Source: Flavobacterium sp. CFS9
GTDB lineage: Bacteria; Bacteroidota; Bacteroidia; Flavobacteriales; Flavobacteriaceae
Assembly (NCBI RefSeq): GCF_041154745.1
Contig: NZ_AP031573.1
Span: 3,782,001-3,846,000, forward strand
Length of the DNA stretch: 64,000 bases
Direction: 5' to 3'
Part shown: positions 39,209-64,000 of the stretch, in pieces
Position numbering within the stretch: the stretch's first letter is position 1
How the letters are laid out: every line of letters begins with the position of its first letter
Program-made: the position numbers and the translations under genes
The notes under the pieces: generated by a model
The model's database searches: none
What the model saw: only the letters and a program-made list of their open reading frames with translations
What the model was told of the DNA's origin: nothing

Positions 39209-40447
39209 TTATTGATCGAGATATTTGGAAAGAGAAGCTTTGTTTTTCTCTATTAATTGATTTAGAACGGTCAAATTAATCATTTTTTGTGTCTGATTTT
39301 GTGCTTGCAATCTAATATTTTCCAGATCTTTTTGAATCGGATCAGTCGAGTTTAAATCTATAAAAGTATTGGATTTCAGTTTCAGTAGGAGATTATTAAG
39401 AGTGTTAAACAGAGGGGAAGTATTGTCTACCTTTCCTTTGTTTTCCAAAAAAGTTTCTGTGTAAAATTTACCGTTTTTTTCGTGTTTGATAATATAATAT
39501 ACGGAGTCATCTAGTGAGAACTTAAATTTATGGATTAATCTGATGCTCTCATTTGTAGATGGAATTAGGAATTTTTCTACTGAATTTTTATATTTTTCAA
39601 GGCTTTCAGGACTATTAATTAAGGCATCTTCTCCTTTTTTGTAGACATGGAAAATAGAATTATCCAAACTAAATGGCATACTGATTTGAAAATTAGTTGT
39701 TTTAGGGGAAATACCAAATTCTGCTTTTGCATAATGATAATTTTCAACCCAGTTTCTTTCATCCCTTATTTCTTTTAAATATTGTGAATTATTTTCTTTG
39801 TACCAAGTTTTATAATAAGTATAGAATGTATTAATATCGATAATATTATTTATTGATATTTTTCTTTTTATATCTTTTAAGAGATTATTACTTTCGTTAC
39901 TTTTCTGAAAGATAAAATTAAGTTTATTGGAATCAAGGCTTTTAATTAAAGTTAGAATATTACCCTGATTAAACATATCATAAATATACCAACGGTTATT
40001 AATTTCTACGCAAGACATTACTGCTATAATTTGAAAAGGCAAGCCATCTATTGTTATTGCATATTTTACAAAATTCACCTTTTTTCCTTTTTCACTAAAC
40101 TCGTAGATAGATTCAATTTCAACATACTCTTTTTCTTTGTTTGATTTTTTTACCAAATTGTAGTGCTCTTGATCCTTAACAGATTTATGCTCTTTATCAT
40201 GATAATCACTTTTATCCCAAATGGAGTCATTTGCAGAAAAATAAGATTGTATTAAGCCTTCAACTCTTGTATAATCTATCTCAGAAGGAGAATCCGCTTT
40301 ATTAATTCTAAGTGCCGGGTTGAAAATTTTAAAATTGATTTCTTTTATATCATTATATTCTAAAGGAATACCTTCTTTCACATTGACTTGGGCGAAGAAG
40401 GCTGTTTTAAAAAAAAAGATAATTATAGTTATTATTAAGTTTCTCAT
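39209..40447 (-). CDS. Hypothetical secreted protein, AT-rich cassette
   Basis: A 412-residue protein with a signal peptide (MRNLIITIIIFFFKTAFFAQ). It is polar and rich in Asn, Ile and Lys, with no recognised domain. Segments such as VEIESIYEFSEKGKKVNFVKYAITIDGLPFQIIAVMSCVEINNRWYIYDMFNQG suggest an NTF2-like or cystatin-like curved sheet. The coding region is among the most AT-rich in the window (9 G/C in the 60 bases at 39841-39900). It is the last gene of the large minus-strand surface operon, 7 bases after the 40455 gene. Confidence 0.7.
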   Translation of the reverse strand: MRNLIITIIIFFFKTAFFAQVNVKEGIPLEYNDIKEINFKIFNPALRINKADSPSEIDYTRVEGLIQSYFSANDSIWDKSDYHDKEHKSVKDQEHYNLVKKSNKEKEYVEIESIYEFSEKGKKVNFVKYAITIDGLPFQIIAVMSCVEINNRWYIYDMFNQGNILTLIKSLDSNKLNFIFQKSNESNNLLKDIKRKISINNIIDINTFYTYYKTWYKENNSQYLKEIRDERNWVENYHYAKAEFGISPKTTNFQISMPFSLDNSIFHVYKKGEDALINSPESLEKYKNSVEKFLIPSTNESIRLIHKFKFSLDDSVYYIIKHEKNGKFYTETFLENKGKVDNTSPLFNTLNNLLLKLKSNTFIDLNSTDPIQKDLENIRLQAQNQTQKMINLTVLNQLIEKNKASLSKYLDQ

Positions 40448-40454
40448 GTCAATT

Positions 40455-40916
40455 TTATAGTTTTTTTCGTTCTTTCCTTTTGATGTTAATGTAATAAAAT
40501 AAGGCGGGTATCGCTGCTAACATAAATATTGGAGTAAACCAATAGTCACGCATTTCATAAGAAAATGGGCTGTTTATTATGTTATTTTTTCTTCTATATA
40601 TAATTTTATTTTTTACAGAGCTTATTCTCCAAATCGGAATTTCAGTTGTATTTTGATTTTCGATTATGCTTTGAGAAATTGTAATGCCACTCTTTAATTT
40701 GTCAGATTTGCAATATCCATAAAATATCCAAGAAGTTTTATTACTGCTACTACTCATTGGAGGTATTTTTTCTCTTACCACTAATGTATCTTTATGATAA
40801 TATTTTTGAGGATTAAATGAGGCGTAAAAAATCTTGGTTTTAGTAAAATCATTTGCTACTTCAATTCCAGTTATTGATACTCCTAAAAATATTAGTATTA
40901 AACAAAATGTTTTCAT
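40455..40916 (-). CDS. Hypothetical protein with signal peptide and C-terminal membrane helix
   Basis: A 153-residue protein: an N-terminal hydrophobic segment (MKTFCLILIFLGVSITGIEVA), an extracytoplasmic beta-rich part, and a C-terminal helix (YWFTPIFMLAAIPALFYYINI) with a basic tail RKERKKL. The topology resembles DUF3592-type small membrane proteins, but I do not recognise it with confidence. It starts 3 bases after the stop of the TANFOR/FN3 gene and is co-transcribed with it. It could be a membrane-located partner of that protein. Confidence 0.68.
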   Translation of the reverse strand: MKTFCLILIFLGVSITGIEVANDFTKTKIFYASFNPQKYYHKDTLVVREKIPPMSSSSNKTSWIFYGYCKSDKLKSGITISQSIIENQNTTEIPIWRISSVKNKIIYRRKNNIINSPFSYEMRDYWFTPIFMLAAIPALFYYINIKRKERKKL

Positions 40917-40919
40917 AAT

Positions 40920-43900
40920 TTACTTATTCTCTTTTATTAGCATTATTTTTTCATTATATTTTTCGGTTTCCCATTTTTTTCCCAGCGTATTTATATATCC
41001 AGATGCTTTTAATTCTAAATAAACTCCGTCGTGTAACAAACCATAATCAAATTTACCTCCATTATCATCTGTATAATAACCAATTCTTATTAATTCAGCT
41101 TTAGTAAGTCCGGAAGCTTCAATTCCTCCTGATAGATAATCATTGTCACCACCAAGACTAAATTCCGATTCTACTCCAAAAGCCATTTCTAATTTTAAGA
41201 TTGCCGGATCAACTCCACTTTTTACAATTTTTTTAGTTTTGGACTCTACATACAAACGTTCTTCTACTGCAGCCTTAACTTCACCAAAAGATTTGGCAGA
41301 AGCTACAATGTCTATTTTTGCTGTAACTACTTTTTTAATTTTTTGGATTACCCATTCAGGTAAAGGAAGTCTTTCAAATGATATTGGCAATGACCAAATA
41401 GTTGCCTTCCCTTCAATACCTAATTCAAATCCACCTCCAGTTTTAGTTTCTCCAAAGTACAATCTGGAATCAGGATCTTCAACATTTCTAAATTCTTTTT
41501 CAAAAGGAATTATATTATAATAATACTGAATTCCTGATTCTTTCAATAAACCTTTATTTTGCACTTTTTTGATAAAAGGTATTTTATCAAAAAACTTTGT
41601 TGCTTTCTCAACCATTTTAGTTGCTTCAAAAGCTTTTTCTATTAGTTTATTTTTAAAGTTCCCGCTGGCTAATGAAAGAGAGTTTTTGTAATAACCTTCA
41701 TCAACCCATTTAATACTTACATCTTTCGTTGTGATTTCAGGTGAACCTGAAATGTTCGTGAAGGTAGAATTTAAAACTTTATTATCATCAGCTAGACGAA
41801 TTTTAATTTGAGTAGTTCCATTCTTGTTTTCATCATCAATACCATTAATTTTCCATTTTATATAGTCTTTTGGAATTTTGTTAAGATTTGTTTGACTTAA
41901 AATTGCTTTTATTTCTGTATTTCTATGATCTGTTTTTCTTGGTTTATTTACATAATACAGTGTTTCTCCAGCATTTGCAACCCTCTTTTTTAATTTAACT
42001 GAATTTGGAATATGAGTAGCTGTCAATCCATTTTGTGTAAATTTTTCCACAATTTTTTCAACCTCTACCCGTACTTTTGGACTACCTTCAATGCTATTTG
42101 CTTCAGCTTGTAAATCTTGTTTTAATAGGTTATTAGTAGTTTTAATATCTTCAATAGGTAAGGTACTCTTACTGGTTTTACTGTCATATCCACGTACCAT
42201 TTCTGATTCGCCTGGTTTGTATATACTATAGCTTACTATGGCGTCCTTAGGTACCGTTTTCATTTCAAAGGTTTCTTCCATATGACGTCTATATGGTATT
42301 TTGATCCTGCCGCCATCATAATATTTTTGTCCTTTGTATTCTATAAAATAACCATTCTCAGTAACGGTTCCATTACTTGCGGTTGTTGTTGACGGTTCTC
42401 TAGTTTCATTTTTTACAGGAGTCGTTTCTTTTATTGGAGGAGGTGTAGGTTCAGGCTCGTCTACATCCACAACAGTAATAGGGTTATATTCAATCGGAGT
42501 TTCCGAAGGAGGTGTTGGATTATTAGGCTCAACAGCTTCTTCTTTTTCAGCAGCATCTACTTCTTCTTGTGTTGGTTTTGGCCCGAAAATAGATTCCATA
42601 ATTGGATCATATTCTTCTGAAATATCATTCATCAATTTATCAACATCCAGGAATTTATCCCAGTTACCAGCATCATAACCGGCTACAATTTCTCCCGAAA
42701 TTAATTTGAAATCGGTATTAAGCCCGATATTATCAAAGGTAATTTTGATACGGGTATTTTCGCTTAAGTTCCATTTTGAGTTGCCTTCACCATCTTTTGG
42801 GCTTAGGGCTTCAGCAGCATCAATAAGTTTCCTGAATTTTTCTAAGAAGGGAAGGGTTACATAACCTTCTCCCGAGAAATTACCATTACTTCCGGTTGCT
42901 TTTAAAACTACGATAGGAAAATCTCCCGCTGAAATGACATCATTCGGGAAAAGTTCCGGAAGTGGTGTTTGGTTGGTGAGATCTTTTGGATCCGGTTTGA
43001 TACCACAGCCCTGAAATACAATTTCGTCTCTGGCAATGGTAGTGAATTCATATATGGAACTGTGAATATATTTACCCACATCGCAGGACGACCCTACGGT
43101 ATATTCGTAGGTAGTGTTAGGCTTTAAATTGCTTAGCGTAATATTTTCTCTTGGCGTTACCGCTTTGTACCATTCCGAACCGGAATTTTTCTCACGATAG
43201 TTTACCTGATAGTCAAAATTATCGACGTTACCGCTCCAGTTTATCTTAGCCTGATCCTGGCCGATACTTTCGGTTTTAATGGCAAGGGGAGAGGTACAGA
43301 ATACTTCATAGGTAAAAGCAAAGATTTCGGTATAACCGTTGTTTTTAAAAACTCCAATTTCTTCAGCCCCCTGAATAGCTTTTGCTTTAATGCGCCAGGC
43401 GTATTTTTTACCGGGAATCAGTTGAGGTTCACTCATGCCATATTGCAGCGTGGTCATTTTGGTAGTGGTGGTATACAACGGAGGTGAGTAAGCAAATGCA
43501 TTTTGTACCGGGGTGTAATTGTCCCAGATTTCGACCAATGAAAATTCATACTCGACATTACTAACGTTGATGCTTCGCGGTGTCCAGCTGAAAACAATGT
43601 TTTGCAGGTTTTGCTGCATGATTGAAGCATTGTTCAAAGGCAGGTTCAGGAAGGGAGGTTCATTTTGAAAAATAACGGTAGTTGTACCCGTTTTTCGAGA
43701 CAGTTTTTTTCCTGTAGCAAAATCATATACCTCTACATAAAAGTTACTGATTCCTTCGGGTAAAGGCTGCGCATATTGATTCGGATTTAAGCCCAACAGG
43801 TTTTGATACTGAAAGTAGGGCGCCAGATCAACATTAGTTAATTGCAATGGAAACCCTCCTTCAAGATACAGTGGTTTTGCTCCTACAACAAAATCGTTGT

Positions 43901-44177
43901 TGCTGAACGCAACTCCGTTGCCCTGAAAGTATATTTTTAATCGAACCTGACGATTGGAGATGGTCAAATCGTTAAGCAGTAGTTGAATTTTAATGGGACT
44001 GTTTATCGTAGTCGCATCGGCATATTTGCTTAAATAAATAGGTGATGGCTGCGCAATTTGAGTCGTAACCGAAATCGGGAACGTTTGTGCAAAGCCTTCA
44101 AATCCTATTAAGGCGCAGAGCAGCAGCAGGTACAGGTGTAAGTTTTTCAGCATTTTGGGTAATTGAATTTTATCCAT
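40920..44177 (-). CDS. TANFOR/FN3-type secreted protein with divergent C-terminal region
   Basis: A 1085-residue secreted protein with a signal peptide ending GFAQ. A Met at residue 9 is an alternative start. Residues about 30-180 (FPISVTTQIAQPSPIYLSKYADATTINSPIKIQLLLNDL) fit the TANFOR domain, named after Tannerella forsythia proteins. A region at about 180-300 and an FN3 domain at about 305-383 (WSGNVDNFDYQVNYREKNSGSEWYK...PNTTYEYTVGSSC) follow. A Pro/Glu/Thr linker (about 545-610) leads to about 470 residues of unrecognised sequence ending in alternating Gly/beta strands. The C-terminal part is clearly more AT-rich than the N-terminal part. There is no T9SS sorting domain, so it may stay at the outer membrane or use another partner. 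Confidence 0.75.
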   Translation of the reverse strand: MDKIQLPKMLKNLHLYLLLLCALIGFEGFAQTFPISVTTQIAQPSPIYLSKYADATTINSPIKIQLLLNDLTISNRQVRLKIYFQGNGVAFSNNDFVVGAKPLYLEGGFPLQLTNVDLAPYFQYQNLLGLNPNQYAQPLPEGISNFYVEVYDFATGKKLSRKTGTTTVIFQNEPPFLNLPLNNASIMQQNLQNIVFSWTPRSINVSNVEYEFSLVEIWDNYTPVQNAFAYSPPLYTTTTKMTTLQYGMSEPQLIPGKKYAWRIKAKAIQGAEEIGVFKNNGYTEIFAFTYEVFCTSPLAIKTESIGQDQAKINWSGNVDNFDYQVNYREKNSGSEWYKAVTPRENITLSNLKPNTTYEYTVGSSCDVGKYIHSSIYEFTTIARDEIVFQGCGIKPDPKDLTNQTPLPELFPNDVISAGDFPIVVLKATGSNGNFSGEGYVTLPFLEKFRKLIDAAEALSPKDGEGNSKWNLSENTRIKITFDNIGLNTDFKLISGEIVAGYDAGNWDKFLDVDKLMNDISEEYDPIMESIFGPKPTQEEVDAAEKEEAVEPNNPTPPSETPIEYNPITVVDVDEPEPTPPPIKETTPVKNETREPSTTTASNGTVTENGYFIEYKGQKYYDGGRIKIPYRRHMEETFEMKTVPKDAIVSYSIYKPGESEMVRGYDSKTSKSTLPIEDIKTTNNLLKQDLQAEANSIEGSPKVRVEVEKIVEKFTQNGLTATHIPNSVKLKKRVANAGETLYYVNKPRKTDHRNTEIKAILSQTNLNKIPKDYIKWKINGIDDENKNGTTQIKIRLADDNKVLNSTFTNISGSPEITTKDVSIKWVDEGYYKNSLSLASGNFKNKLIEKAFEATKMVEKATKFFDKIPFIKKVQNKGLLKESGIQYYYNIIPFEKEFRNVEDPDSRLYFGETKTGGGFELGIEGKATIWSLPISFERLPLPEWVIQKIKKVVTAKIDIVASAKSFGEVKAAVEERLYVESKTKKIVKSGVDPAILKLEMAFGVESEFSLGGDNDYLSGGIEASGLTKAELIRIGYYTDDNGGKFDYGLLHDGVYLELKASGYINTLGKKWETEKYNEKIMLIKENK

Positions 44178-44212
44178 TTTTTGTCAGGTTAGCAGGGAAG
44201 TATTGACTCCTT

Positions 44213-46663
44213 TTATTTTTGAATATGGTTAAGATCGATTTCATCAATGTTTGCATTTTTAAGTGCGAGATCGTGATAAAACGGTATCATTTTGACTTCG
44301 ATAGCCGCTATTATTTCAGGACCGGATTTTTTTTCTTTTATCGATTTAAAAGCTTCTTCCATTTCTTCTGCACTAAAAACTACTGCAGCCGGATTTTGCT
44401 GTATTTCGGCAGCTGGAAGTTTGGTTAATGCCGAAATTTCTTTGAGCATCCATCGGTGACGTGTGAGTTGATCGCGATTTTTGTTACTTCGTTCTACCAA
44501 TTTCTGATAGGATTTGTAAGCGGTTTTATCGGTAACGTTTTCTTCATTCACACCATGCAGTTTGTGGCTGTTTACTCTTCCTAAAGCCGAAACATAAGCA
44601 TTTTCAAGACTTGCATCTTTGTCTTTCATCTCTGTTTCTAATTTTTTGGCAGCTTCGAGAACATAATCTTTGTATTTTTTTACGTTTTCTGCTTCGATAT
44701 TGTAAGCTTCAAGATAATCTAATACTTTCTCTTTAAACTGTTTGTCATCCGGTGTAAGCGAAGCCAGAGTGAGTAAATGCTCTAAATTTGTGCTTTCTTT
44801 TTCCGGTAATGGGTTTAGTGCCAATTGCATTTCTTTTAATTGAGCTGTAATCTGATCCCGTGTTCCTTCAAAAGCTTTTCCGTTAAGGTTTATTTTCAGA
44901 ATAGAAGTAAGGTTCATGTCTTCTTCTGTTTTTGGTTCTTTCTTCGGACGCATTTTGATTTTGTCAAAGGAATAGGAATAAGACAGTGTAGCCGTCATAT
45001 CATTGTTTTTACCGGTGGCCGTTTTACTGAATAATGTGATGACACTCATGTTGAAATTGTGTTTTTCAAGATAAATGTAAGACCCGTTCAATCTGAAATT
45101 GAAGATGTCGTTTTGTTTCTGACCATTGGCATAGCTAGTATTGTAACTTGTCGAGGCATTGGCATTCATTTTTTTATCGAAAAACAGTTTGGAAGCTCCA
45201 ATTGTTGGTCCGATAATAAAACTCTTCCCACCATCCGTTTGTCCATAGGTATTGTTTATAGAACCGTTGAAGCTGAGCTCTTTTTGAGGATACCCAAGAG
45301 AATAGGTAAGGGCTGAGTTGTAATAGGTCGATGCTCCGCCTGCAATTGTTTTTCCTTGCTGTTGGTTTACAGCATCCTGCATGGAGAAATTGGCACTAAT
45401 TGCTTTTTTTAACTGTTTGTCATTTCTTAACAGATAATTTACTGTCAGACCTAAATTTTGGTTGACTTGCCTGAAGTTTAATGTATCTAAATACTCGTAA
45501 TTGGAAACCTGATTGATGTAGTCAAACTGATTACGGCTGTTGGTGAACGATTGAAAGTTAGAATAGTTCAGGTTCAGGTTTAATTTTTGATTGGGTCTCA
45601 AATCGACATTAGCTGAGGTTACCAAACGTTTCATTTGGCTTTCTTTCTGCTTTTCTAAATTGTCTTTCTGAAGTCCTAAGTTTAAGGCAATCGACACTTT
45701 ATCTTTATACAGATTTTGGGTCGCATTAACGGTTACGTTTTCTAAATCGTTATTAAAATAGTACCCTCCGAAGGTTCTGTAGTTGGGGTCAATTCGTTCG
45801 TAACCTAATCCTAAAGTTCCTTTTCCGGCCGGGTAAGCCAATTGTCCTTTGAAAGCATTATAACTAGTGGTAGTACTGTTTCTGCCCAATAGAAAAGAAG
45901 AAACCCCTTTTGCTTTTCCACCTGCTACAACTCTTAAATCTTCGGTTATACTGCTGCTGGCATATTCGGTAGAGACTTGTAGTTTTTGAAAAAGTTTAAA
46001 ATTAGTTTCAAAACTAATGGCAGCATTTTCCTTTGGAGCGACATCCAGTTCAAAGGGTACGGGGTTGTTTAAAGAATTGATCTGATCTCTTGCTTTAAAC
46101 AAAGTAAGTCCCAGGTTTATTTTCTCCAGGGAATAAGCGGTTTTAAATCCATATCCAAATCTTTTGTAAGCAGGAAGAATATCAGGATAGGCTGAATCAA
46201 ATTCGTTGCTTTTTAATAAGCGTCCATACATCGCACTGATTTTAAATTTTCCCTGTGGAGTCAAATCTACTCCAAAACCGGTAAACTGATGACCGCTCAG
46301 TGTGTAAGGGGAGAAGGTCATGCTGACGTCTCCAATATGGGCAGTAATCCATTTATAAGAAGGATGTATGCTCAGACGATTCATTAAAACAGGTTTGTTG
46401 TACCCGAATTTTTGATTGGTATAAGAAAATGAAAGCGGTATGTTGTACAGATTAGCAATATTGAAATTGATGTTTCCGTTCAAAAAATAACTGAAAGGCT
46501 CTCGTGTGGCATTACCGGAATAGAATACCGTATTGGCTGATGCACCACCACTAACATTTATAAGTTTGGCTTTGCCGAGCTCCTGTACATTAAAGTTTTG
46601 CGAAAAAGCAAAGGTACCGGTGAATAGCAGTAGTGTAATTAAAATTATTCTTTTTAAAATCAT
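44213..46663 (-). CDS. Outer-membrane beta-barrel-like protein with helical C-terminal domain
   Basis: An 816-residue protein with a signal peptide (MILKRIILITLLLFTGTFAFSQ). Residues about 20-560 are rich in alternating aromatic/hydrophobic strands with Asn/Gly turns (GNINFNIANLYNIPLSFSYTNQKFGY, ATLSYSYSFDKIKMRPKKEP), as in a large outer-membrane barrel. Residues about 575-816 are charged and helical (LNPLPEKESTNLEHLLTLASL, EEMEEAFKSIKEKKSGPEIIAAIEVKM), probably periplasmic or extracellular. I do not know a named family. It is encoded between the SprB-repeat cargo and the TANFOR protein, so it could anchor or export them, as PorP/SprF-type barrels do for SprB, though it is much larger than those. 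Confidence 0.7.
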   Translation of the reverse strand: MILKRIILITLLLFTGTFAFSQNFNVQELGKAKLINVSGGASANTVFYSGNATREPFSYFLNGNINFNIANLYNIPLSFSYTNQKFGYNKPVLMNRLSIHPSYKWITAHIGDVSMTFSPYTLSGHQFTGFGVDLTPQGKFKISAMYGRLLKSNEFDSAYPDILPAYKRFGYGFKTAYSLEKINLGLTLFKARDQINSLNNPVPFELDVAPKENAAISFETNFKLFQKLQVSTEYASSSITEDLRVVAGGKAKGVSSFLLGRNSTTTSYNAFKGQLAYPAGKGTLGLGYERIDPNYRTFGGYYFNNDLENVTVNATQNLYKDKVSIALNLGLQKDNLEKQKESQMKRLVTSANVDLRPNQKLNLNLNYSNFQSFTNSRNQFDYINQVSNYEYLDTLNFRQVNQNLGLTVNYLLRNDKQLKKAISANFSMQDAVNQQQGKTIAGGASTYYNSALTYSLGYPQKELSFNGSINNTYGQTDGGKSFIIGPTIGASKLFFDKKMNANASTSYNTSYANGQKQNDIFNFRLNGSYIYLEKHNFNMSVITLFSKTATGKNNDMTATLSYSYSFDKIKMRPKKEPKTEEDMNLTSILKINLNGKAFEGTRDQITAQLKEMQLALNPLPEKESTNLEHLLTLASLTPDDKQFKEKVLDYLEAYNIEAENVKKYKDYVLEAAKKLETEMKDKDASLENAYVSALGRVNSHKLHGVNEENVTDKTAYKSYQKLVERSNKNRDQLTRHRWMLKEISALTKLPAAEIQQNPAAVVFSAEEMEEAFKSIKEKKSGPEIIAAIEVKMIPFYHDLALKNANIDEIDLNHIQK

Positions 46664-46751
46664 TCTTTATGGGCCATGGAAATCAAGACCGTTTTCTTGA
46701 TTTCCATTAGTATTTGAAATTTATAATTTTGCTTGCTGGATAAGTTAGAGT

Positions 46752-49700
46752 TTACTGAATAATGATTTTTCTCAATTTACTTCCTTGCTGTGACTCGAAT
46801 AACACGAAATAGATTCCTGATGGAAGCCCGGTTAAACTAAAGTTGAACAGGTAATTGTCTTTACCTTCCTGTGTTTTTGAATCTATCAGTAAGTTGTTAT
46901 TCAAATTATAAACCTTAACATGTGCCGGCATTACTTTATCCAGCAATACATCTACAGTAAAAGCTCCTTTTGACGGATTTGGATAGATTTTCAGATCGAA
47001 TTTTTTGAAAGTCTGATCGTCCGGATTGTTTTCTTCGTATTCCCCTTCAGTTACTAAGACTGACTTGGTTTGAAAAGCAGTACAGTTTCCTTTTTTGGTG
47101 TTTAATGTAATGTCGTATTCACCAGCCTGACTGAAACTGATTTCGGCAAAATCTTTGTTTTTCGAGATTACGGTTGCACCGGCAGGAATTACCCATTCGA
47201 TTTCATCGGCATCCGGATTACTGATGTCAACGATTATGAATTTCTCGTTTTTGAATACCTGACTAGAGACTGCAAATTCGGCACTAATTGGGGTATTCTG
47301 ACTTGAAATTTTGATGGTATCTGTAGCCTCACAACCCAATTTATTGGTAACTACAACGGTATAATTTGCAGGTTCAGAAACGGTAACTATCGCTTTGTTG
47401 CTCTTGAAACCTTTATCAGAAGTCCATGAATAGGTTGCTTTATCGTCATCAATTGTGGCATTAATGGTTAAGGTCTGATCAAAACATAAAGTCACATCTT
47501 CTCCGATATTGATAACATCTTTCGGTGGATTGACAATGGTGTAGGTATGATTGATCACACAACCTTTGATGTCCGTAACGACAACTTTATATTCTCCTGC
47601 CGAAGCATTCTTTAAGACATTTGATGTTTCTCCGGTATTCCATAAATAAGTATAAGGCGCTTTTCCTCCTGAAGCGGTCAGGGTAATAGTCGCATCAGAA
47701 CCGGCATAACAGGTTGGTATTTTAATAGTTTCGGCTGCTGCTAAATGAACAGGCGCTACAATGGTAATATCTTTTGTAATGGTACAACCGTGTTTGTCTG
47801 TGATTTTGACAAAATAATAACCCGGTGGGACATTTTTTATGCTAGCGGTTTGAGCACCCGTATTCCAGCTGTAGCTATACGGTAGTGTTCCTCCTGATGG
47901 ATTAGTATCAATAGTCCAGTCGTTGAAGTCTCCACAAAGAGTATAGTCTGCCGTGAGGTTATTGTTCAGAACCTGAGGCTCAGTAACGATGAAAATTTGG
48001 CTGGTAGCCTTATTACCATTTGAATCTGTTGCGATTGTATAATAAGAACCTTTTCCGATACCTGTTAGAATAGTCGTTGTTGCTAATACGGTGGCATTAT
48101 TTTCTGCAAACCATTGATAAGTATAGCTTTCGCCCGGTTTTAGGAATCCACCAATTGTATTTGGTTTCAAACTTCCGTTTTTATCTCCATTACATAAAAC
48201 AACGTTTTGTACTGCTACACTAGTTTCCAGCAAAGGAGGTTCTGTAACTTCTAATAGTTGTGAAGTTAAGCTACAGTTTTTAGCATCTTTGATGATAACG
48301 TAGTAGTTTCCGGCAGCCAGGTTTATTGCTGTGGCTGTGGTCTGATTTAATGCGGTACCATCATTTTTGAACCAGTTATAGGTGTAGGCACCGTTTGCTC
48401 CCTGTGCCGTTATAGCAAGAGATCCGTTACTTAGTCCTTTTCCTGTAGCAGGAATTGATACAATTTTACTAATTGTTAAAGCAGTTGGAGACGTAATTTT
48501 TACGGTTGCCTCTGTGCTTGTACATTGCTGTGTGTCTTGTACCTGAATGGTGTATTCTCCATCGGCTAAATCAGTAATAACTGTTTTTGCTCCGTTTGTG
48601 AAATTTGTCCAATTTTTAACCAATATTCCATTTTGGAAATAACGGGATCTGAATATTCCATTTCCTCCTGCTGCTGTGATAGCAATACTTCCGTTTGTAT
48701 CTCCTAAACATTTTACAGGTTCAGGAACGGTGGTAAAGGTTATATAATCAGGCTGAGTTATGATTATTGGAGCAGTGGTTACTTCAATTGCTTTTGAATC
48801 TTTTACAACAGCGTAGTAAGTACCTATTTTAGCATTGATGAGTTTGATGTTGTTCTCATTTGGCAATAAGACATTGTTTCTGTACCAGCTAATTTTTTTG
48901 GTTCCAAAACCTCCGGCTATTGTTGCTTCAAGAATCGCATTGTTGGATTCAAAGCAGGTCATGTCCTGAGTTTGTCTGATTGTGATGGTTAACGGATTAT
49001 CAGTAAAATCAAAATCAGCGTATTTTGTACAGCCGGTTGCATCCTGAACAGATACATAATAGTGATCTTTAACTAAACCAGTAAAGTCGACCATTTTGGC
49101 CGCTGTATTTGAAATCGTTTTTACAACTGTTATGTTAGCCAGTGCATCTTTAGTGTAGAGTTTATACTCAAAATTTGGTTTTCCTCCTATAATTTCAAAA
49201 TGCAGTGCACCGTCATTTCCGTTCAGAGCTGTAGGGTTGATATAGGTAATTTTATCAACATCGAATCCAAAATCTGCCGGTTGTGTGATGATGATGTTCT
49301 CCAGAATTCCGATACAATGGGTTGCATCAGCAGAATTGTAATTGGCGTCACGAACTTCTACTGCATAATCGCCTTCAGTAAGGGCGTTTAAGGCTACCGG
49401 TGTAAAGTTCTCGTATGCATTGGTGGCGGTGTTTCTTTTTTTCCATTGATAGTTATAAACAGGAGCACCATTTACGATGAAAGGTGTTCCTCCGGTAACT
49501 GCTATTTGAATTGCTCCGTCTTGTCCCGCGAAACAACTCACGGGAGTTTTTGAGATTAAGTTTACCACAACGGCGGTAGGCTGTTTGAATGTTACGTCAA
49601 TCGTATTAGAGTCTACATTGCCCACATCGGTAGCGGTAAGTGAGTAGTCTCCGTCTGGAATGTTTTTAAAACTGGCCGTGTTTTGAACGATAGTTACGAC

Positions 49701-53324: not shown

Positions 53325-53346
53325 AATGGTATGGTTGTTCGGGAAT

Positions 53347-54552: not shown

Positions 54553-54556
54553 TATG

Positions 54557-55724: not shown

Positions 55725-56972
55725 TTATTTTTCGATACAATCAGAATCGTCTACGACGATTACTTTATGTTCGCCATCTGTTGTTATTTTTATGGTATGA
55801 GGACTTGTAAAGGCATGTTTTTGTTCTGGTAATTCACCGTCTAAAAGATAATAGTAAGAGTTTGACCCTCCTTTAGCCGTTATTAGGATCCCTTTTTCGT
55901 CTGTACTACAGGCAGGTTGTACCGCTGTTGCAGTAAAAGTTAAGGGGGGACTGGGAGTAATGGTAAAATTGGTCACTGTCGACGGAGTAGAAGGGGTATT
56001 GTTCCCAAACTGTGTCTGATACTTAAAATCATATACCCCTGCAGGTATATTTTTCCATTTATAACTAAGTGCAGAAATTTTTTCTACCTCAGGACCATCT
56101 GAAGTTTCAGAACTGGGAACCCCATTGCCTACAGGAATACGATTGAATATGTATTTTTCGCCCGGTTCCAGAGGTCTGCTAAACGTAAAGGTCACACTGC
56201 CATTGCCATAACTGCAAGTGGTAAGGTTTGGACTCGAGGTATGATCTAATTTTGGTGAACAGGGTATTATGGAATAGGTTGCAATATCTGACTCAAAGGT
56301 TTCAATTTTATTGGTATTCAGATTTTCATAATCAACAACAAATCTAATAAAAAGGTTTCCTGTATAATTTTTCAAATCCGGAACATCTTTGAAGTTAAAG
56401 TTTAGCCCTTTTTCGGTATATTGTGCGCCATAAGTAAAGTATTTCCATTGTGTATCGGTACTTTTTTTGTACTGCCACGAATAGCCTGCACCTGACAGCT
56501 GTATTTGTTTTAAAATCGTAAGATTATCACAATTACCAATCATGCCGTTTGTTTGCGGCAGGTCCAAAACCAGAAAGTTGGTGCGGCCATGACAAACTCC
56601 CATAGATAGGTTTTTTGGAGCAACCAGAGTAGTCTGATCATTTTGACGGCATTCCGGTCCGCCCATTTGAGTTGGTTTAACAACATATGAACCATTGATC
56701 GTAATTTTAAGAGGGTATTTAGACGCATCATACTGCACCAGATCATATGTAGTTTTGACATCGTCATCGTTGTTCGTTAGGTCATAGGCTTTACCGAAAG
56801 CCGTAGCTCCGTTAGCAGTGATGTTTACACTGTACGTATTGGATTTGAGGTCAGGACCGTATCTCGTTAACTGTGTTTCAATTAGTATTTTACCGGTTTG
56901 ACCATAGGTGACCTGAGCCGCAAAAAAAGCGACTAGAATCAAAATATAAGTGGTTTTGTGTAAAATATTCAT
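55725..56972 (-). CDS. Secreted SprB-end protein, tandem paralogue 2
   Basis: A 415-residue protein with a signal peptide (MNILHKTTYILILVAFFAAQVTYGQ). The N-terminal domain (KILIETQLTRYGPDLKSNTYSVNITANGATAF) differs from the others; the C-terminal 190 residues are nearly those of paralogue 3 (CSYGNGSVTFTFSRPLEPGEKYIFNRIPVGNG, and ending VIVVDDSDCIEK). This constant C-terminus with variable N-terminus suggests duplication followed by exchange of the exposed domain. The gap to the preceding paralogue is 36 bases. Function unknown. Confidence 0.78.
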   Translation of the reverse strand: MNILHKTTYILILVAFFAAQVTYGQTGKILIETQLTRYGPDLKSNTYSVNITANGATAFGKAYDLTNNDDDVKTTYDLVQYDASKYPLKITINGSYVVKPTQMGGPECRQNDQTTLVAPKNLSMGVCHGRTNFLVLDLPQTNGMIGNCDNLTILKQIQLSGAGYSWQYKKSTDTQWKYFTYGAQYTEKGLNFNFKDVPDLKNYTGNLFIRFVVDYENLNTNKIETFESDIATYSIIPCSPKLDHTSSPNLTTCSYGNGSVTFTFSRPLEPGEKYIFNRIPVGNGVPSSETSDGPEVEKISALSYKWKNIPAGVYDFKYQTQFGNNTPSTPSTVTNFTITPSPPLTFTATAVQPACSTDEKGILITAKGGSNSYYYLLDGELPEQKHAFTSPHTIKITTDGEHKVIVVDDSDCIEK

Positions 56973-57008
56973 TATTGAATGTTTAGAATAGTATCGTATT
57001 TCTTGAAG

Positions 57009-58328
57009 TTATTTTTCCATGCAGTCAAAACGGTCCAGAACAATCACTTTATGGTCACCATCGGTTGCAATTGGTATGATGTCAGGATTTTTAGTAAGCT
57101 CTTTTTTGCTTTCATTATCTAAAATGTAGTAGTAAGGAGGTGATCCTCCATCCACTAAAATCTCAACACCACCTTTATCAGTATTGCATTGAGGCTGCAC
57201 AGCGGTTGCTTTAAAAGTTAACGCCGTAGTATTTTCTATTTTAAAAATCGGAGTTTCTACCGGACTGGATCCAATTGTGGTATTAGGATCAGAAGTGTTT
57301 TGTGTTTGGTATTTTATCATATAAGAACCGGGAGCAAGTCCTTCCCAGGTATAGGCTCTATTGGTAATATCCGTATCTTTTGCAAACCTGTGACTTCTGA
57401 ATGCACCATTTTCATATAAAGTAAGAAGCAACTTTTGGCCCGATGGAACGTCCGAAAGGAAATTTAAAGTTACACTGCCATTTGGTTCGTTATAACATTT
57501 AACCTTAGCAGCTACCGGGGCACCATTAAGTTTAGGAGAGCAGGGAATAAATTTGTAGGTTAAAATATCAGAATAATCATTTGCACCGCCACTTCCGGTT
57601 CTGGTGTATCTCGCCCTTAATTGAAAATTTTGGTTCAATTGCAGATTAGGGATGGATGTAAATGTTATTGGTATGTTTTGTGCCGATCTTGAGGCATAAG
57701 GTAATAACTCTTTCCAATTTGCAGTGTTTGGATCATAATATTCAACGGCAAAAGTCATAAAGCCACTTTCACCAACTACGGCTACCGTAAAATTAAAAGT
57801 CTCACATTGTTTCAGCTCTGAATTTGAAACATTGTAATTGTTTACTTCCACTAGTGTCTGCAAATAGAAGAATTCAAACTGAGTATTGTGTGTAACCGTA
57901 ACGTTATCAAAATTATAAGCAAAGTTAGATTGCCAGTAACCGGAATACGGACCTGTCATAAATGGTGCATGTTTCTGAAAGAATCCCGAAGATACGTTAT
58001 CAACTGCTCCACTAAGACGCAATGGGGTATTGGAAACAACGACACCATCCATCGGACTAGCACCTGAATTTTTTAAAACATACGAAAATGAACTGCTTGA
58101 GCCCGTCGAACTTGCATTGGCATAAGTTCCGTTAAAGGGATATGTATCACCAGTGTTTAAGTAAAAGTAAACGTTTCGGCTGGTGCTTGGTGATTTTCTT
58201 AAGTCCCACTTCACTTTATACTTGTACGTTGTCTGACCGTTAATGAGCTGCATACCAAAAACAGTCAAAAACAGACAGGCCATTTTTAAGGTTAGAGATA
58301 TGTTTTTGTATGTAATAAATAGTTTCAT
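57009..58328 (-). CDS. Secreted SprB-end protein, tandem paralogue 1
   Basis: A 439-residue protein, first of four tandem paralogues. Signal peptide within MKLFITYKNISLTLKMACLFLTVFG...NGQ. The N-terminal domain (TTYKYKVKWDLRKSPSTSRNVYFYLNTGD) is again unique. The shared plan follows: FIPCSPKLNGAPVAAKVKCYNEPNGSVTLNFLSDVPSGQKLLLTLYENG, then LTFKATAVQPQCNTDKGGVEILVDGGSPPYYYILDN, ending KVIVLDRFDCMEK. It is 4 bases after the FN3 gene. The four copies may form parts of one surface assembly or serve as alternative tips. Confidence 0.78.
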   Translation of the reverse strand: MKLFITYKNISLTLKMACLFLTVFGMQLINGQTTYKYKVKWDLRKSPSTSRNVYFYLNTGDTYPFNGTYANASSTGSSSSFSYVLKNSGASPMDGVVVSNTPLRLSGAVDNVSSGFFQKHAPFMTGPYSGYWQSNFAYNFDNVTVTHNTQFEFFYLQTLVEVNNYNVSNSELKQCETFNFTVAVVGESGFMTFAVEYYDPNTANWKELLPYASRSAQNIPITFTSIPNLQLNQNFQLRARYTRTGSGGANDYSDILTYKFIPCSPKLNGAPVAAKVKCYNEPNGSVTLNFLSDVPSGQKLLLTLYENGAFRSHRFAKDTDITNRAYTWEGLAPGSYMIKYQTQNTSDPNTTIGSSPVETPIFKIENTTALTFKATAVQPQCNTDKGGVEILVDGGSPPYYYILDNESKKELTKNPDIIPIATDGDHKVIVLDRFDCMEK

Positions 58329-58332
58329 GTAT

Positions 58333-60414
58333 TTAGAACTTTACAGTGAAAAAATCCATTTTTGAGGTTCTTCCATCTTTAAATGTTGCTCTGATACCGT
58401 ATTGGTATGTTGTATTAATGGTAATGGTAGGATCTGGTAAAAAGCGTGTTTTTCCCGGAACAATCTGAATCAATTGCAATGGATCTTTATCTGAAGCTTT
58501 GTAGATTTCGAAACTGTCAACTTCATTGTTTGCGTAATCCCAGGACAAATCAATAGTATTGGAAGTTTTATTGGGCTGAGCGAAAAAACCTTTCACAGCA
58601 GGCATTACAGAATATTTTGGAACAAATAAAGTTAATCCCGGCGAAGGATTAGAAACTAAATTACTCTCGTCTTTGGCAAAAATGGCATAACGGTAAGTGT
58701 TACCTTCAACCGCCGTTTTATCCTGAAATTTTTCTTCCTTATTCTTGGTTTCCAAAATCAGTGTCCAGTCTTTTTGATCATTTTCTTTTCTGTACAGCTG
58801 GTGTACTGCCACATCTTCACTCTGACTGTTTACCCATTCCAGAAAAATAGCTCCTTCTTTGATTTTGAAGCTGGTAAAAACAGGTGAAGTAGGAGGGATT
58901 ACATCTGGTTTTTTAATAATTAAAACATCTGAGAAATCAGACATATTGTAATGATAATCTACAGCAATAACTTTGTAATAAACCTTACTGTTCAAACTTT
59001 TAACAAGCACTTTGTCCTGAAAAGAGTTTGGTTCGCTGGGGCTTACAGTCAGCTGAGTAAGTTCTTCTTCTGCGGTATTTCCTCTGTAAATACGATAACC
59101 TAACAGATCTTTTTCTTTGTTAGGATCCCATGTTAATTTCACAACACCCAAACTGTCTATAACTCCTTTTAAGCCAACTGGTTTAGAAGGAGGTATGGAG
59201 TCTACGGGCTGTACAAGCATAGGAAATGAAGTTCTGTTGCTGCCTTGTTTTCCAAGCGCCGTAATCGTAAAATAATTCGTCGATAAAAGTTTGTTGTACG
59301 TAACTGAGCGGCTTTTGGCCGGGATATTTTTCACCACTTTTGTATAGCCGTCAGTATCAGTATCTGAACGGTTTAATTCAAATCCAGTGATTTCATTATC
59401 ACCTTCTGCCGGAAATTCCCAGGTTAACGTAACGGTGTTTTCATCTTTAAATTCTTTGACAGTAAGATGAGGAACATATTTTAAGATCGTGGTTCCTTTT
59501 CCTGTTATAACTTGTGAATAAGGGCCTAATTCACCAAAAGGTGAAATTCCCTGAATTCTGTAGCTGTACGGTTTATTGTTCGCAATAGAATCAACATAGA
59601 AAATTTGACTGTTACTGGTGTTTTCCTGATTTAAACTGGTGTAAGGCTTATCAGTAATTCTCTCAAAAGTTTTTTTATCGGTGGAACGTTCTACAAAATA
59701 ATTGGCATAGGTATGCGAAAGTATTTTAAAATTCCAGCTTAACATGGTGCTGCCGTCTGTAAAATGAGCCGTAAAATCCATTGGTTTTGGAAGAGGCTGA
59801 TAATCCTCTAATCCAACGAAAATTCCGCCATAAGCAATTGCAGCCTCTTTTTCAGGCACGTTTGAGATTATCCTGTAGGCATATTTTTCGTTAGGTTTAA
59901 CCGTTTTATCTTCAAATCCAAGGCCAGCTTTTTTTGCAATTTCGTAATCCCTGTCAGCGGTTAACAGAGCAAACGTAAACCTTTGCTCGTTTTCTTCAGA
60001 AAGGTTTATGATGTTCTCTAGTTTATCTGTTCCGGTAACCGAGAAATTTTCGCCATAAATGGCTTGTGCTACGATGGCAGCATTGTCGTTCTTTTCAATT
60101 AATTTTTCCCATGTTTCCAGTGGCTCAGGTTTCAAAGCATTAATTAGAACTACTTTTTCAGGGGTTGGTAAAGTTTTATTGTTACGGGTAACGGTATAAC
60201 GTTCTACAGTATAGCCATAAGTATTTAGTTTTTTCCAGGCCATCGCATTGCTGACAGCCCATCTTAACAAAATTCTGTCCTTTTGCACTCTGGCTATAAC
60301 TTGTATTTCCGATTTTATTTCGTTTGGATTCGCTTCTCCCGTATCATTTTTCTCTTGTGCATAGTGAGTACCGGTTATTATAAAAGTAAGGAGAATTAAA
60401 AATTTAAGCTTCAT
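58333..60414 (-). CDS. Secreted multi-fibronectin type III protein
   Basis: A 693-residue protein with a signal peptide (MKLKFLILLTFIITGTHYAQ); the longer frame to 60465 is rejected because it overlaps the preceding gene. About five FN3 domains can be traced: PMDFTAHFTDGSTMLSWNFKILSHTYANYFVERS, HLTVKEFKDENTVTLTWEFPAEGDNEITGFELNRS, KPVGLKGVIDSLGVVKLTWDPNKEKDLLGYRIYRG, SPVFTSFKIKEGAIFLEWVNSQSEDVAVHQLYRK, and VKGFFAQPNKTSNTIDLSWDYANNEVDSFEIYKAS. No T9SS sorting domain is seen; the last residues MDFFTVKF end on an FN3 strand. Probably an extracellular scaffold. It starts 1 base after the giant gene's stop. Confidence 0.85.
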   Translation of the reverse strand: MKLKFLILLTFIITGTHYAQEKNDTGEANPNEIKSEIQVIARVQKDRILLRWAVSNAMAWKKLNTYGYTVERYTVTRNNKTLPTPEKVVLINALKPEPLETWEKLIEKNDNAAIVAQAIYGENFSVTGTDKLENIINLSEENEQRFTFALLTADRDYEIAKKAGLGFEDKTVKPNEKYAYRIISNVPEKEAAIAYGGIFVGLEDYQPLPKPMDFTAHFTDGSTMLSWNFKILSHTYANYFVERSTDKKTFERITDKPYTSLNQENTSNSQIFYVDSIANNKPYSYRIQGISPFGELGPYSQVITGKGTTILKYVPHLTVKEFKDENTVTLTWEFPAEGDNEITGFELNRSDTDTDGYTKVVKNIPAKSRSVTYNKLLSTNYFTITALGKQGSNRTSFPMLVQPVDSIPPSKPVGLKGVIDSLGVVKLTWDPNKEKDLLGYRIYRGNTAEEELTQLTVSPSEPNSFQDKVLVKSLNSKVYYKVIAVDYHYNMSDFSDVLIIKKPDVIPPTSPVFTSFKIKEGAIFLEWVNSQSEDVAVHQLYRKENDQKDWTLILETKNKEEKFQDKTAVEGNTYRYAIFAKDESNLVSNPSPGLTLFVPKYSVMPAVKGFFAQPNKTSNTIDLSWDYANNEVDSFEIYKASDKDPLQLIQIVPGKTRFLPDPTITINTTYQYGIRATFKDGRTSKMDFFTVKF

Positions 60415-60415
60415 G

Positions 60416-63400
60416 CTAATTTGTTTTATTGAATGTAAAAATTGAACTGGTACCAGCTTGTCCACCAGGAAGTATATAGTTTAATTTGACATTGTAAATG
60501 CCGTCTTTTATCATTGGAAACCTTCCTGTTATGATGTAATTGTACTTATCGATCATAGCCCGATTCTGACTGTTCAAATATTTATTAACTACTTTATACT
60601 GAATTTTGATAAAATCGTCCTTATAGTAAAAAGGCTGGTTGTAGCGATATGGCAGCCTGTCTCTTAAATAAGAACTTTTCGGATTGTTTATTAAATCAGA
60701 CAGGTAAGAAGTGATTATTTCCACCCCTCTAACAGGAGGATTTCCTAAAAGAGTTGTATTTCTGTTTAAAGTTAAATCGGCTTCTAAAGGATATCCTCGG
60801 TATATCAATGGATAAATATCATTCTTAAAATAGCTATCATCTAACAGGGCTTCAACACTTACCAGTGGAATGTTCATTGATTTAGGAGTACCGGCGATTT
60901 CAATCTCATCAAAGGCTTCAGTTGATGTATTTTCTGCATGTAATGCATGAATATCAGCTTCAATAATCTCTATGTGAGTTTTACGTGCTTTCTTAGCGGC
61001 CATTTTTTCCTGAAAAGTATTGTACTCACTTGTATTGAAGTTGTACTGCAGCAATTCAATACCCTGACCGCCTGTTAGCGTTTCTGCCAGTTTATTGTTT
61101 TTAACTTCAACATTAGCATTTGACCCCAGATCCTGTTTCTCAAAACTTTCATTCAGGTTAGCATTAGCATCTTTTGCAGTTTCCAGTGTCATTAAGGATA
61201 AACTATAAGGTTTTACGTTTTCTAAAACTGGTAAACTAACGATTACCTTTTTTAAATCGGCGTTGTAGCTTATAGAACCATTTGATGTTTTAGTTCCCGT
61301 TTTATAGAATGCTTTTTGAGATTGCCCCGGTTTAAGATCAAATAAGTAAGCCTGTCCGGTTTTTAGTACGATGTAGGCATCTTTACTTTCGTTTTGATAA
61401 ACATACTTTTGATCAAAAACAGGGTAACTGTAAGCAATATTGCTTACCGGAATATTATTAGGTGCTACACCCGTAGTAAAAGTTCTGGTTTCAGTTTCCA
61501 TTGCCACCTGACCCTGATCCATAATGGTTTTCCAGGCACCATTTGTATATTCCTGGAAACTTACTTTTACGGTTAAGGTTAATTCTGATTTTTCAGGTAA
61601 TATTTCAGATGAATTGAAACTTACCAAATCATTTGTTTTATTCCAGCTTAAAGTACCAATTACAGGAACTCCGCCTTTTTTAACGGTATATTCTTCTAGT
61701 TTGAGTCGATAGGTTTTAACGCCGTCATCTCCTTCAATGTTGAAGTTTTTATCTACAGGCATATTAAATCCAACCTGAGGTACGGTAAAGACATCTACAT
61801 CTTTTGTTCCCTGAGCAGGAGTAATATCGGCAATAGATTTTAAGCCTTCTAACGGATTAGCTGATATAAATTCGCACTGTTCTCCAAATTCAAGTTTGAA
61901 GCGGAAACTACCTCTTACGGCACCACCAAGCAAGCTGAATTCACCCGCCATATAACCTCTAATCCATACCGGATTTGGCAGTTTGGCCTGTAATAAAACA
62001 GCACCTCCACCTTTTATAATGGATATTTTCTTTCGTATAAAAAACAGTTTTATATTAATTCCAAGTTCCCCTTGCATATAGGCATACGACTGACCATTAG
62101 CGTACCAACCGTTGATACCAATTTGCCCTGAGCCCTTACATTGTGCTTCTCCATAATCTTTAACCATAATGTCAAATCCAAATCCGGCCTGGAAATTGGC
62201 ATAAAACATTAAGAAACTCAAGTTTCCGGTTTTGATGCTAAAGTCAGAACCAAAAGCAAATCCTTTTCCTGAAGCAATGCTGTTTTCATCACGCATATAA
62301 TTCAGTTTAGCAACATCAACTCTTAAAAGTTTAGCAACAATATCGGGTGGAGGTGGACTGCCCGGGATATCATCTCCAAGCATGAAATAACCACCAGCCT
62401 CTACTTCGACAGATCCAATAGCCAGTTTTATACCCAATCGATCAGTAGGAGTACCTGCACGGATGTACCATTTATCCGGTCCGAAGTGTAAAACTGCCCA
62501 ACCCGCTCTGTTTCCTGAAGCACGGCCTTGTATGAAACCTCCCGGAGTATCAATATATAAATCGAAGGTACCGTGTAGTGTTTTTGCTCTAAAATCGTAT
62601 TCGATCGCAGCAAAGGCATTGATCCCCATACTGTTTTTTACATCGTTTGGATAAAGTTGTTCTGCGGCGGCAGATAAATTAGATGTTTTTAAGGCTTCAG
62701 TTGCGATTTGCCCCATTAAAGATTCATTTTCAGTAACCGTTTGTAAGGCTTTTGTTAGTTCGTCAGCCCCCGGAATTTCAAACGGCTGCATTAAGTGACC
62801 TTCTCCATAAATGCTAATTCTGTTAAGACCACCATGTTTATTAAAAGCAATTTCGAAACCGGCACCTCCCCAAAAAGCATTTGCTGTTGCAGTACCCGCA
62901 AACTTAATCATTGCCTTAACACCTAATCCTGAATCTGCATCAGGTACATAATTGGATTTCGACGCTACAAAAGAAGAACTAAAGCCGTCTTTTTTCATTT
63001 GATAATAGGCACCACCACCAAAACCTTTAAAAGTAATGGGGCCGGCAGGAATATTTAAGTTGTCTACCATGGCATCTACATACCAATATCTAAATGTAGT
63101 AGATCCAAAAATAGCATTAGCTTCAACCTTGATACCTCCTGTAAAATCAGCCGATACACTTCCCTTGAAACCGTTTCCATAAACCGGATCATTGTCCATT
63201 ATGGCAATGCTTCCTTTAAATTTTACACCTCCTAAGTCGGCAGCAACTTTTATTTCCTCAAACTTAAGGCGTTCGTATTTCCATTTCTGAATTCCTTTTT
63301 CTCTGTCGAATGATCCAATGACATAAAATTTAGTCTGACCATTAAACTGATTTTTCATAATGTTAATGGCAACATCAACTTTCAGACTTGCCGATACATC

Positions 63401-64000
63401 TGTAGCGACGAGAGAAATTTCGTTAATGGTAACAGGAAAATTACTTACTGCGGCATCTTTTTCCTGAATGTGTTTGTAACCGAAATAGTCTGCCGTTAGA
63501 TAAGGCACAACAGTCTGCAAGGTTAAATTCTGGAAAATGATTCCTTTAAAATTTATGGCTTCTTTTTTCTCGCCATCAGCATTAGTTGTTTCGGAAGATT
63601 TAATTGGAGATGCGGCAAGTTCGGCTGCGGTGGTATTTTTATTACTGCCTTTTAATGCCAAACTTCCGTAAAGAACCGCTTTTGGTAAAAACTTCCCGTC
63701 TTTTACCTTTAGTTCCAGATAAGAGTTTTTTTCTAAAGAAGCCGTCGCTTTAAAAGCCTGAAAGCAAATGTTATTGGTTACATCAGCTTTAAGAATATAT
63801 TCGTTGTCGACAGGGTTTATGATGGCATTGTAAGCTAATCTTCCTCTCGATTTAGGGTCACATTGTGTATTTTCTTCAGAAGAAACCGGTAAAACGATTT
63901 CACCATTGAAGGCAGCGGCTGTTAATGAGTTGGCTCTGAATTCCATCTCAATATGGTCTAATGAAAACTGCCATCCTGAAGCACTTCCTTCTTTAAGACT
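60416..64000 (-). CDS. Giant secreted beta-rich protein, N-terminus beyond window
   Basis: An open frame from the stop at 60416 to the right edge, about 1194 residues, with no start inside the window; upstream of the first Met at 63946 the frame continues (...SGWQFSLDHIE). The visible part has many Gly/Ala-rich beta segments (GFKGSVSADFTGGIKVEANAIFG, GFGGGAYYQMKKDGF, GLGVKAMIKFAGTATANAFWGGAGFEIAF) that suggest a stacked-strand or barrel-like structure. At about residues 735-850 an Ig-like domain is likely (VFTVPQVGFNMPVDKNFNIEG...LSWNKTNDLVSFNSSEILPEKSELTLTVKVSF). The last 250 residues have no clear family. As the upstream-most visible gene of the operon it may be the core of the surface structure. 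Function unknown. Confidence 0.75.
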   Translation of the reverse strand, partial: SLKEGSASGWQFSLDHIEMEFRANSLTAAAFNGEIVLPVSSEENTQCDPKSRGRLAYNAIINPVDNEYILKADVTNNICFQAFKATASLEKNSYLELKVKDGKFLPKAVLYGSLALKGSNKNTTAAELAASPIKSSETTNADGEKKEAINFKGIIFQNLTLQTVVPYLTADYFGYKHIQEKDAAVSNFPVTINEISLVATDVSASLKVDVAINIMKNQFNGQTKFYVIGSFDREKGIQKWKYERLKFEEIKVAADLGGVKFKGSIAIMDNDPVYGNGFKGSVSADFTGGIKVEANAIFGSTTFRYWYVDAMVDNLNIPAGPITFKGFGGGAYYQMKKDGFSSSFVASKSNYVPDADSGLGVKAMIKFAGTATANAFWGGAGFEIAFNKHGGLNRISIYGEGHLMQPFEIPGADELTKALQTVTENESLMGQIATEALKTSNLSAAAEQLYPNDVKNSMGINAFAAIEYDFRAKTLHGTFDLYIDTPGGFIQGRASGNRAGWAVLHFGPDKWYIRAGTPTDRLGIKLAIGSVEVEAGGYFMLGDDIPGSPPPPDIVAKLLRVDVAKLNYMRDENSIASGKGFAFGSDFSIKTGNLSFLMFYANFQAGFGFDIMVKDYGEAQCKGSGQIGINGWYANGQSYAYMQGELGINIKLFFIRKKISIIKGGGAVLLQAKLPNPVWIRGYMAGEFSLLGGAVRGSFRFKLEFGEQCEFISANPLEGLKSIADITPAQGTKDVDVFTVPQVGFNMPVDKNFNIEGDDGVKTYRLKLEEYTVKKGGVPVIGTLSWNKTNDLVSFNSSEILPEKSELTLTVKVSFQEYTNGAWKTIMDQGQVAMETETRTFTTGVAPNNIPVSNIAYSYPVFDQKYVYQNESKDAYIVLKTGQAYLFDLKPGQSQKAFYKTGTKTSNGSISYNADLKKVIVSLPVLENVKPYSLSLMTLETAKDANANLNESFEKQDLGSNANVEVKNNKLAETLTGGQGIELLQYNFNTSEYNTFQEKMAAKKARKTHIEIIEADIHALHAENTSTEAFDEIEIAGTPKSMNIPLVSVEALLDDSYFKNDIYPLIYRGYPLEADLTLNRNTTLLGNPPVRGVEIITSYLSDLINNPKSSYLRDRLPYRYNQPFYYKDDFIKIQYKVVNKYLNSQNRAMIDKYNYIITGRFPMIKDGIYNVKLNYILPGGQAGTSSIFTFNKTN

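Follow-up and report, generated by a model that had tools for sequence, protein, structure and literature searches.

A probable polymorphic-toxin operon of the TANFOR kind with its own surface apparatus in Flavobacterium sp. CFS9

The TANFOR proteins have been described as polymorphic toxins of the Bacteroidetes (Jana, Salomon and Bosis 2020, PMC7073777). According to the parts of that account on which we draw, one DNase domain was tested together with its immunity protein, SprB, CTD and FN3 domains are enriched near TANFOR genes, and both the exit route of these toxins and their path to rival cells were left open (PMC7073777). More recently, TANFOR was counted as a trafficking domain in a survey of 2025, as given in the portion of it that is cited here (PMC11796102). 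Because the class had already been published as polymorphic toxins with SprB, CTD and FN3 neighbours, the claim of the initial annotation that the locus studied here had no known name or relative is not supported.

The window, by which we mean the whole stretch of 64,000 nucleotides that was analysed, corresponds to positions 3782001-3846000 of the one-contig, 5.37-Mb genome of Flavobacterium sp. CFS9. It carries an operon of 11 minus-strand genes that runs from g11 (first) to g1 (last, ending at 39209); with gene starts set mechanically, neighbours are 3 to 88 bases apart or overlap slightly. A minus-strand operon of at least ten genes had been read at 39209-64000, and all of the genes named there are indeed open frames on that strand. 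Its start had been sought past the 64-kb limit and does lie outside the window, with g11 beginning 1,140 bases beyond base 64000 and what we take to be a yebC-like gene as the next one upstream. Most likely, the operon is an antibacterial weapon that combines a toxin whose end is swapped among strains, matching protection genes, an outer-membrane pore of very large size and a conserved set of surface giants. To judge from the sequences, it would probably be a TANFOR-type system of polymorphic toxins with a surface apparatus of its own; the toxin half of this explanation is well supported, and the export route is the part that we infer.

The first gene, g11 (60416..64000, minus strand, as for every gene of the operon), encodes a giant beta-rich secreted protein of 1,574 amino acids, delineated by BLAST and profile comparison, whose first 380 residues fall beyond the window and for which no sequence relative was found in the PDB at E-values up to 1. 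It is followed by the FN3-repeat protein g10 (58333..60465; fn3, 3e-14 in Pfam) and by g9 (57009..58328), g8 (55725..56972), g7 (54557..55720) and g6 (53347..54567), in which four SprB-end proteins had been seen. The paralogy of all four was established by BLAST (28-64% identity), g8, of 415 residues, being 64% identical to g7 across 241 residues. The SprB label is partly sustained by the Pfam scan, which took in g6, g7 and g9: SprB was matched below the cut-off in g6 (1e-5) and at the C-terminal end of g9 (7.7e-6), whereas g7 gave only weak, sub-cut-off BiPBP_C/Y_Y_Y matches. The giant protein g5 (46752..53399, its true start probably being near 53324) agrees with the SprB-type T9SS cargo proposed before, with 15 SprB stretches (Pfam, 5.9e-120) and, at the C-terminus, Por_Secre_tail (PF18962, 4.9e-16), which we take to be a type-A T9SS tail. 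The large barrel with a helical tail that had been recognized from the letters of g4 (44213..46663) is also what structure prediction returns, namely an outer-membrane barrel (residues 35-565, about 25 strands) and a helical tail (residues 602-803). Pfam gave no match for g4, g11 or g1.

The toxin itself would be encoded by g3, in which clustering and comparison with Flavobacterium tructae separate a conserved N-terminal delivery part (42621..44177), with a signal peptide, a TANFOR-like region and FN3, from a variable, beta-rich C-terminal part that has no zincin motif (40920..42620), which we call a putative toxin by its position and exchange only. A barrel profile built from five rows was searched against the species-genome collection and yielded at least 573 pattern stretches, at least 458 of them true relatives, from which the best 80 were kept. 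In 75 of these 80 loci (the best 80 of at least 458 relatives), the barrel gene has a TANFOR gene within two genes on its 3' side. Four of the loci that show no TANFOR after the barrel lie at contig ends or on short contigs (L074, L075, L106 and L124), and the other, L118, has its barrel away from a contig end, a true exception that counts against our main reading. Among 76 TANFOR proteins with a length of 900 residues or more, those of the window and of genome G008 included, residues 21-480 fell into a single cluster and the last 150 residues into 42 clusters, an arrangement that reads as polymorphic C-termini on a conserved N-terminus; the downstream neighbours (n = 64) formed 36 clusters. 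In the C-termini of 41 representatives from the relatives, ten Pfam member-family matches pointed to eight toxin families: TNT and the ADP-ribosyltransferase exoenzyme (two each), two deaminase families, WHH, a non-specific endonuclease, colicin DNase and ART (one each). At least 31 of the 41 matched no Pfam family, the figure being a lower bound because one protein may be counted twice.

Downstream genes go with the C-termini. A downstream family was shared by 38 of 79 pairs from the same C-terminal cluster, compared with 22 of 1,937 other pairs, and none of 2,000 permutations of the toxin/downstream pairing reached 38, a result that is inflated by strain relatedness. When pairs from different C-terminal clusters with a long N-terminal alignment were considered, 40 of 2,764 were at least 90% identical in the N-terminus. 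The g3 of genome G004 is 75% identical to that of the window in its first 506 residues, the remainder is not aligned by BLAST, and other small genes come after it. Around the toxin operon of this same genome (L008, L009), on both sides, stand three endonuclease-like genes, presumably of the endonuclease V kind, one of them with an extra N-terminal part. Locus L128 has two TANFOR genes, whose N-termini are 98% identical and whose C-termini are unrelated, one of them being of the window's type. A zincin motif is embedded at a fixed position, residues about 840-990, in 66 of the 76 TANFOR proteins (L050-L129); it could possibly serve the release of the toxin end, and in one long relative Reprolysin_5 was matched in this region (4.8e-6).

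The description of g3 as a TANFOR/FN3 protein was upheld for FN3, which Pfam found in g3 as in g10, and for the homology of its N-terminus to relatives that match the TANFOR model, whereas the model itself, TIGR02542, did not match the g3 of the window, which weighs against the main reading. This model matched five of 30 N-termini homologous to g3 (best, 4.5e-4) and, in 28 chosen genomes, gave 21 matches in 17 genomes (best, 8.4e-13, none above the cut-off), all 21 of which coincide with matches of a profile derived from g3.

No known toxin family was matched in Pfam by the C-terminal part of the window's g3, another point against our reading. This part aligns at 47% over 566 residues with its counterpart in L055 and has distant relatives in L050, L094, L102, L120 and one of the two toxins of L128; the seven window-type toxins are short (974-1,089 amino acids) and the zincin motif is missing from them. 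Behind it come g2 (40455..40916), which has a hydrophobic segment at both ends and only sub-cut-off Pfam matches and is probably an immunity gene, and g1 (39209..40447), which encodes a secreted protein and is probably a second immunity or modulator gene, both being so read from the counterparts that stand beside toxins of the same type. A g1-like exported protein follows the toxin in L055 (33%, 2.7e-50), L050, L102, L094 and L120, and a protein of 148-181 amino acids with two hydrophobic segments follows it in L055, L050, L094 and L120, the corresponding protein of L128 having a single segment (the hydrophobic ends were read off the sequence for g2 and computed for the counterparts). Among those counterparts, g2 is matched in sequence by the L055 copy only (27%, 1.5e-6), and no g2-like gene was seen in L102, which again speaks against the main reading. 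The combination of a membrane-type g2 and an exported g1 suggests that the membrane or the periplasm is where the toxin acts. Genes resembling g1 or g2 also occur apart from a window-type toxin (L109 genes 07-08 and L058 gene 08) and are possible orphan immunity genes.

Comparison with the closest named relative by barrel among the matches listed, F. tructae (L050, 98%), locates the exchange. The window aligns with it at 89% over 42621-53976. Along g3 the agreement is 95-100% up to residue 480, 85% at residues 481-520 and then mostly 10-37% per block; homology ends at residue about 519 and is back, at 90%, at 38306, just past the operon. On the 3' side of a minus-strand gene of 183 amino acids (38338..38889) lies an 87-base sequence with a terminator-like hairpin (38215..38301, no strand assigned), and a second copy of it, 92% identical, is found between that gene and g1 (39079..39165, likewise). 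This flank is single in L050 and in L052, and it had no match in the other 78 of the best 80 loci. The 183-amino-acid gene, placed between both copies, is 60% identical over 109 amino acids to L053_08, the second gene 3' of another TANFOR toxin, and is probably an orphan immunity gene of a displaced cassette. The simplest reading would be that a new toxin-immunity cassette was inserted here and that its predecessor's immunity gene stayed in place.

The surface genes were followed through a class sample of 396 genomes by profile searches at 1e-5, in which at most two candidates per genome were scored for the barrel and for g11, and at most four for TANFOR, so that matches may be missed. The barrel was matched in 87 genomes (61 of 198 genera), g11 in 50 and TANFOR in 160. 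That 160 genomes have TANFOR and 87 the barrel at this loose threshold counts against the main reading; many of the weak TANFOR matches span only FN3 or part of the domain. For the overlap, 78 barrel rows with E-values up to about 1e-20, from 67 genomes, were retained and 26 weaker ones dropped, and TANFOR rows were taken down to about 1e-15, with weaker rows and second pieces of a single frame dropped, both cut-offs having been set after inspection of the match lists. Strong TANFOR matches were thereby found in 61 of the 67 strong-barrel genomes, TANFOR only in five and neither in 324 (n = 396), and in one of the five, G100, a barrel just beyond the cut-off adjoins the TANFOR gene. A TANFOR gene lies within 5 kb of 53 of the 78 barrels, and TANFOR or g11 within 20 kb of 68, which leaves ten with neither in that range. 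Among near relatives the barrel is patchy (4/60).

Twenty stretches, drawn from 16 genomes and containing 17 barrels, were mapped. The same locus contains g10 for 16 of the 17 barrels, the exception stopping at a contig end, and large SprB-repeat proteins occur in the mapped loci of G402, G365, G161 and G230. In all 32 loci from L050 to L081 (31 named Flavobacterium and one Flavobacteriaceae), an SprB giant with a T9SS-tail motif immediately precedes the barrel. From 18 loci of other Flavobacteriaceae, 15 were extended, L082 being left out and L093 and L122 lying too close to a contig end; all 15 have g11, then directly g10, then an SprB-repeat giant of 951-3,734 amino acids, with one additional gene inside this run in L110, a T9SS-tail motif in 14 of the 15 giants and, in L099, five SprB-end proteins as well. 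The order is g11-g10-SprB-ends-g5-g4-toxin-immunity in Flavobacterium, g4-toxin-immunity-g11-g10-(SprB-ends)-g5 in other Flavobacteriaceae, and g10-g5-toxin-small genes-g4-g11 in G008, the position of g10 differing in G008 and G365. These extended loci and differing orders indicate that content is conserved and order permuted. A check of gene order in Flavobacteriia, as the initial annotation had proposed, therefore supports the content and not the order, in a toxin class that already has a name; its broader claim of a coherent surface-protein system of several genes, conserved and equipped with a large barrel that is not PorP/SprF, is supported. Chance alone would be far from producing such conservation of the gene set.

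Some loci depart from this layout. The contig of L090 carries, on the opposite strand, a further g11-g10-SprB block that has a TANFOR gene of its own, of 1,358 amino acids (L174); no second barrel was seen in L090 or L174, and one barrel may serve two toxins. Genomes G194 (L141, L142) and G218 have the barrel and a short g11 of about 980 amino acids (in G194 also g10) on one contig and TANFOR on another, which suggests that these partners can work for a toxin whose gene lies elsewhere. TANFOR and g11 are joined in one frame of about 1,800-2,300 amino acids beside the barrel in G042 (L013), G441, G221, G199, G308 and G070, a candidate second form of the system.

A fused TANFOR-g11 frame is present in five of the 17 mapped barrel loci, all five without the zincin motif, and also in G042; from this it follows that TANFOR need not carry a toxin, which is against the main reading. 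It argues for a reading in which the barrel, g11, g10 and the fusion make up an older system of general secretion or surface assembly, with the toxins as only one acquired cargo, and the breadth of the barrel among genomes and genera at 1e-5 points the same way. We hold this to be a serious possibility, if a tentative one, and for the window it can stand together with the main explanation. It is rather unlikely that the TANFOR toxins are ordinary T9SS substrates that leave through SprA, while g4, g11 and g10 only anchor or assemble a surface structure. This reading would fit the T9SS tail on g5, the presence of the T9SS translocon SprA in the window's genome and in all 67 barrel genomes, and the hypothesis of T9SS export put forward in 2020, as worded in the parts of the source used here (PMC7073777). 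However, Pfam finds no T9SS tail on g3, the tight tie between barrel and TANFOR is left unexplained, and SprA occurs in almost every genome of the class sample (384 of 396), so its presence says little on T9SS dependence. The appendage, adhesion or gliding system proposed by the initial annotation, whose variable C-termini would be ligand-binding or antigenically varying tips, is in keeping with the SprB repeats, the FN3 domains and giant beta-rich proteins, the single-frame TANFOR-g11 proteins without zincin motif of other families and the lack of a toxin match in the g3 C-terminus of the window, but it is improbable, given that the last gene block appears to be an exchangeable cassette for toxin and immunity on a protein of the TANFOR type, that deaminase, WHH and other nuclease, TNT and ADP-ribosyltransferase domains stand at the equivalent position in relatives, that downstream families are paired with C-termini, and that a DNase toxin of the class and its immunity protein were shown by experiment, on the evidence of the sections cited (PMC7073777).

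In the preferred reading, that of a TANFOR-type toxin system with its own surface apparatus, the operon proteins would reach the periplasm through Sec, and g5 would be exported by the T9SS through its C-terminal domain and form a long surface stalk. The tail-less g3 would exit through, or sit in, the barrel g4 together with g11 and g10 and be presented to neighbouring bacteria, and g2 and g1 would shield the owner, with immunity located in the envelope. The barrel may be an anchor and not a channel. That g4, g11 and g10, with g5, constitute a dedicated delivery machine of the Bacteroidota, in which a barrel of usher size exports or displays tail-less TANFOR proteins beside the T9SS and toxins are exchangeable cassettes, is an idea that we put forward as possible and with some doubt. 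With the account of 2020 (PMC7073777, in the parts used), which presented TANFOR proteins as polymorphic toxins, the toxin class is known; the apparatus is new within the literature searched, where no description was found of a partner set made of a g4 of about 25 strands, the giant g11, the FN3 protein g10 and the T9SS-tagged SprB protein g5. Partner families that are class-wide and tightly linked make the export question answerable by gene removal. If the barrel is the exit, the Bacteroidota can export toxins by a path that exists alongside the T9SS; if it is not, the T9SS takes part in the killing of rivals. A practical route to new toxin and immunity families is likewise offered by the boundary of the swap, by the paired genes and by the metalloprotease motif.

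Among the known systems, the SprB/SprF gliding adhesins resemble the locus in their SprB repeats and in having a giant repeat protein that ends in a T9SS tail (g5), and they differ from it in that the g4 barrel is larger and the locus is tied to toxins. The PorP/SprF barrel is missing from the locus, as had been noticed: the genome has 12 PF11751 matches, of which the nearest is about 160 kb away, and the g5 tail is PF18962 and not the SprB-type (type B) C-terminal domain. A chaperone-usher system was rejected, no usher or chaperone Pfam domain being found in g4 or g10; barrel size alone is alike, and g4 shows 12% and 15% identity to the usher pore (FimD/PapC) and to MtrB, with Foldseek TM-scores of at most 0.49. 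Two-partner secretion or CDI was likewise rejected, with no TpsB/CdiB, POTRA or TPS Pfam domain in g3, g4, g5 or g11. In contrast to CDI and Rhs systems, neither g3 nor g11 has a Pfam match to a carrier, the sole trace being a sub-cut-off RHS_repeat (0.048) in g6; what the locus presumably has in common with them is a conserved carrier, an exchanged C-terminal toxin with its immunity gene, and a left-over immunity gene with a duplicated flank. As for the TANFOR toxins, the words barrel, porin, metallo, protease and operon do not occur in the main text of the 2020 paper, and the recurring g4/g11/g10 set, the embedded metalloprotease motif and the TANFOR-g11 fusion are not in its account, as far as the parts used here extend (PMC7073777). 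With those toxins, as they are portrayed in the same parts, the window's system shares a signal peptide, a TANFOR-like N-terminus, FN3 and polymorphic C-termini, downstream genes of matching families, and the SprB, T9SS-CTD and FN3 neighbours and the T9SS in the genome that were found for the g3 locus.
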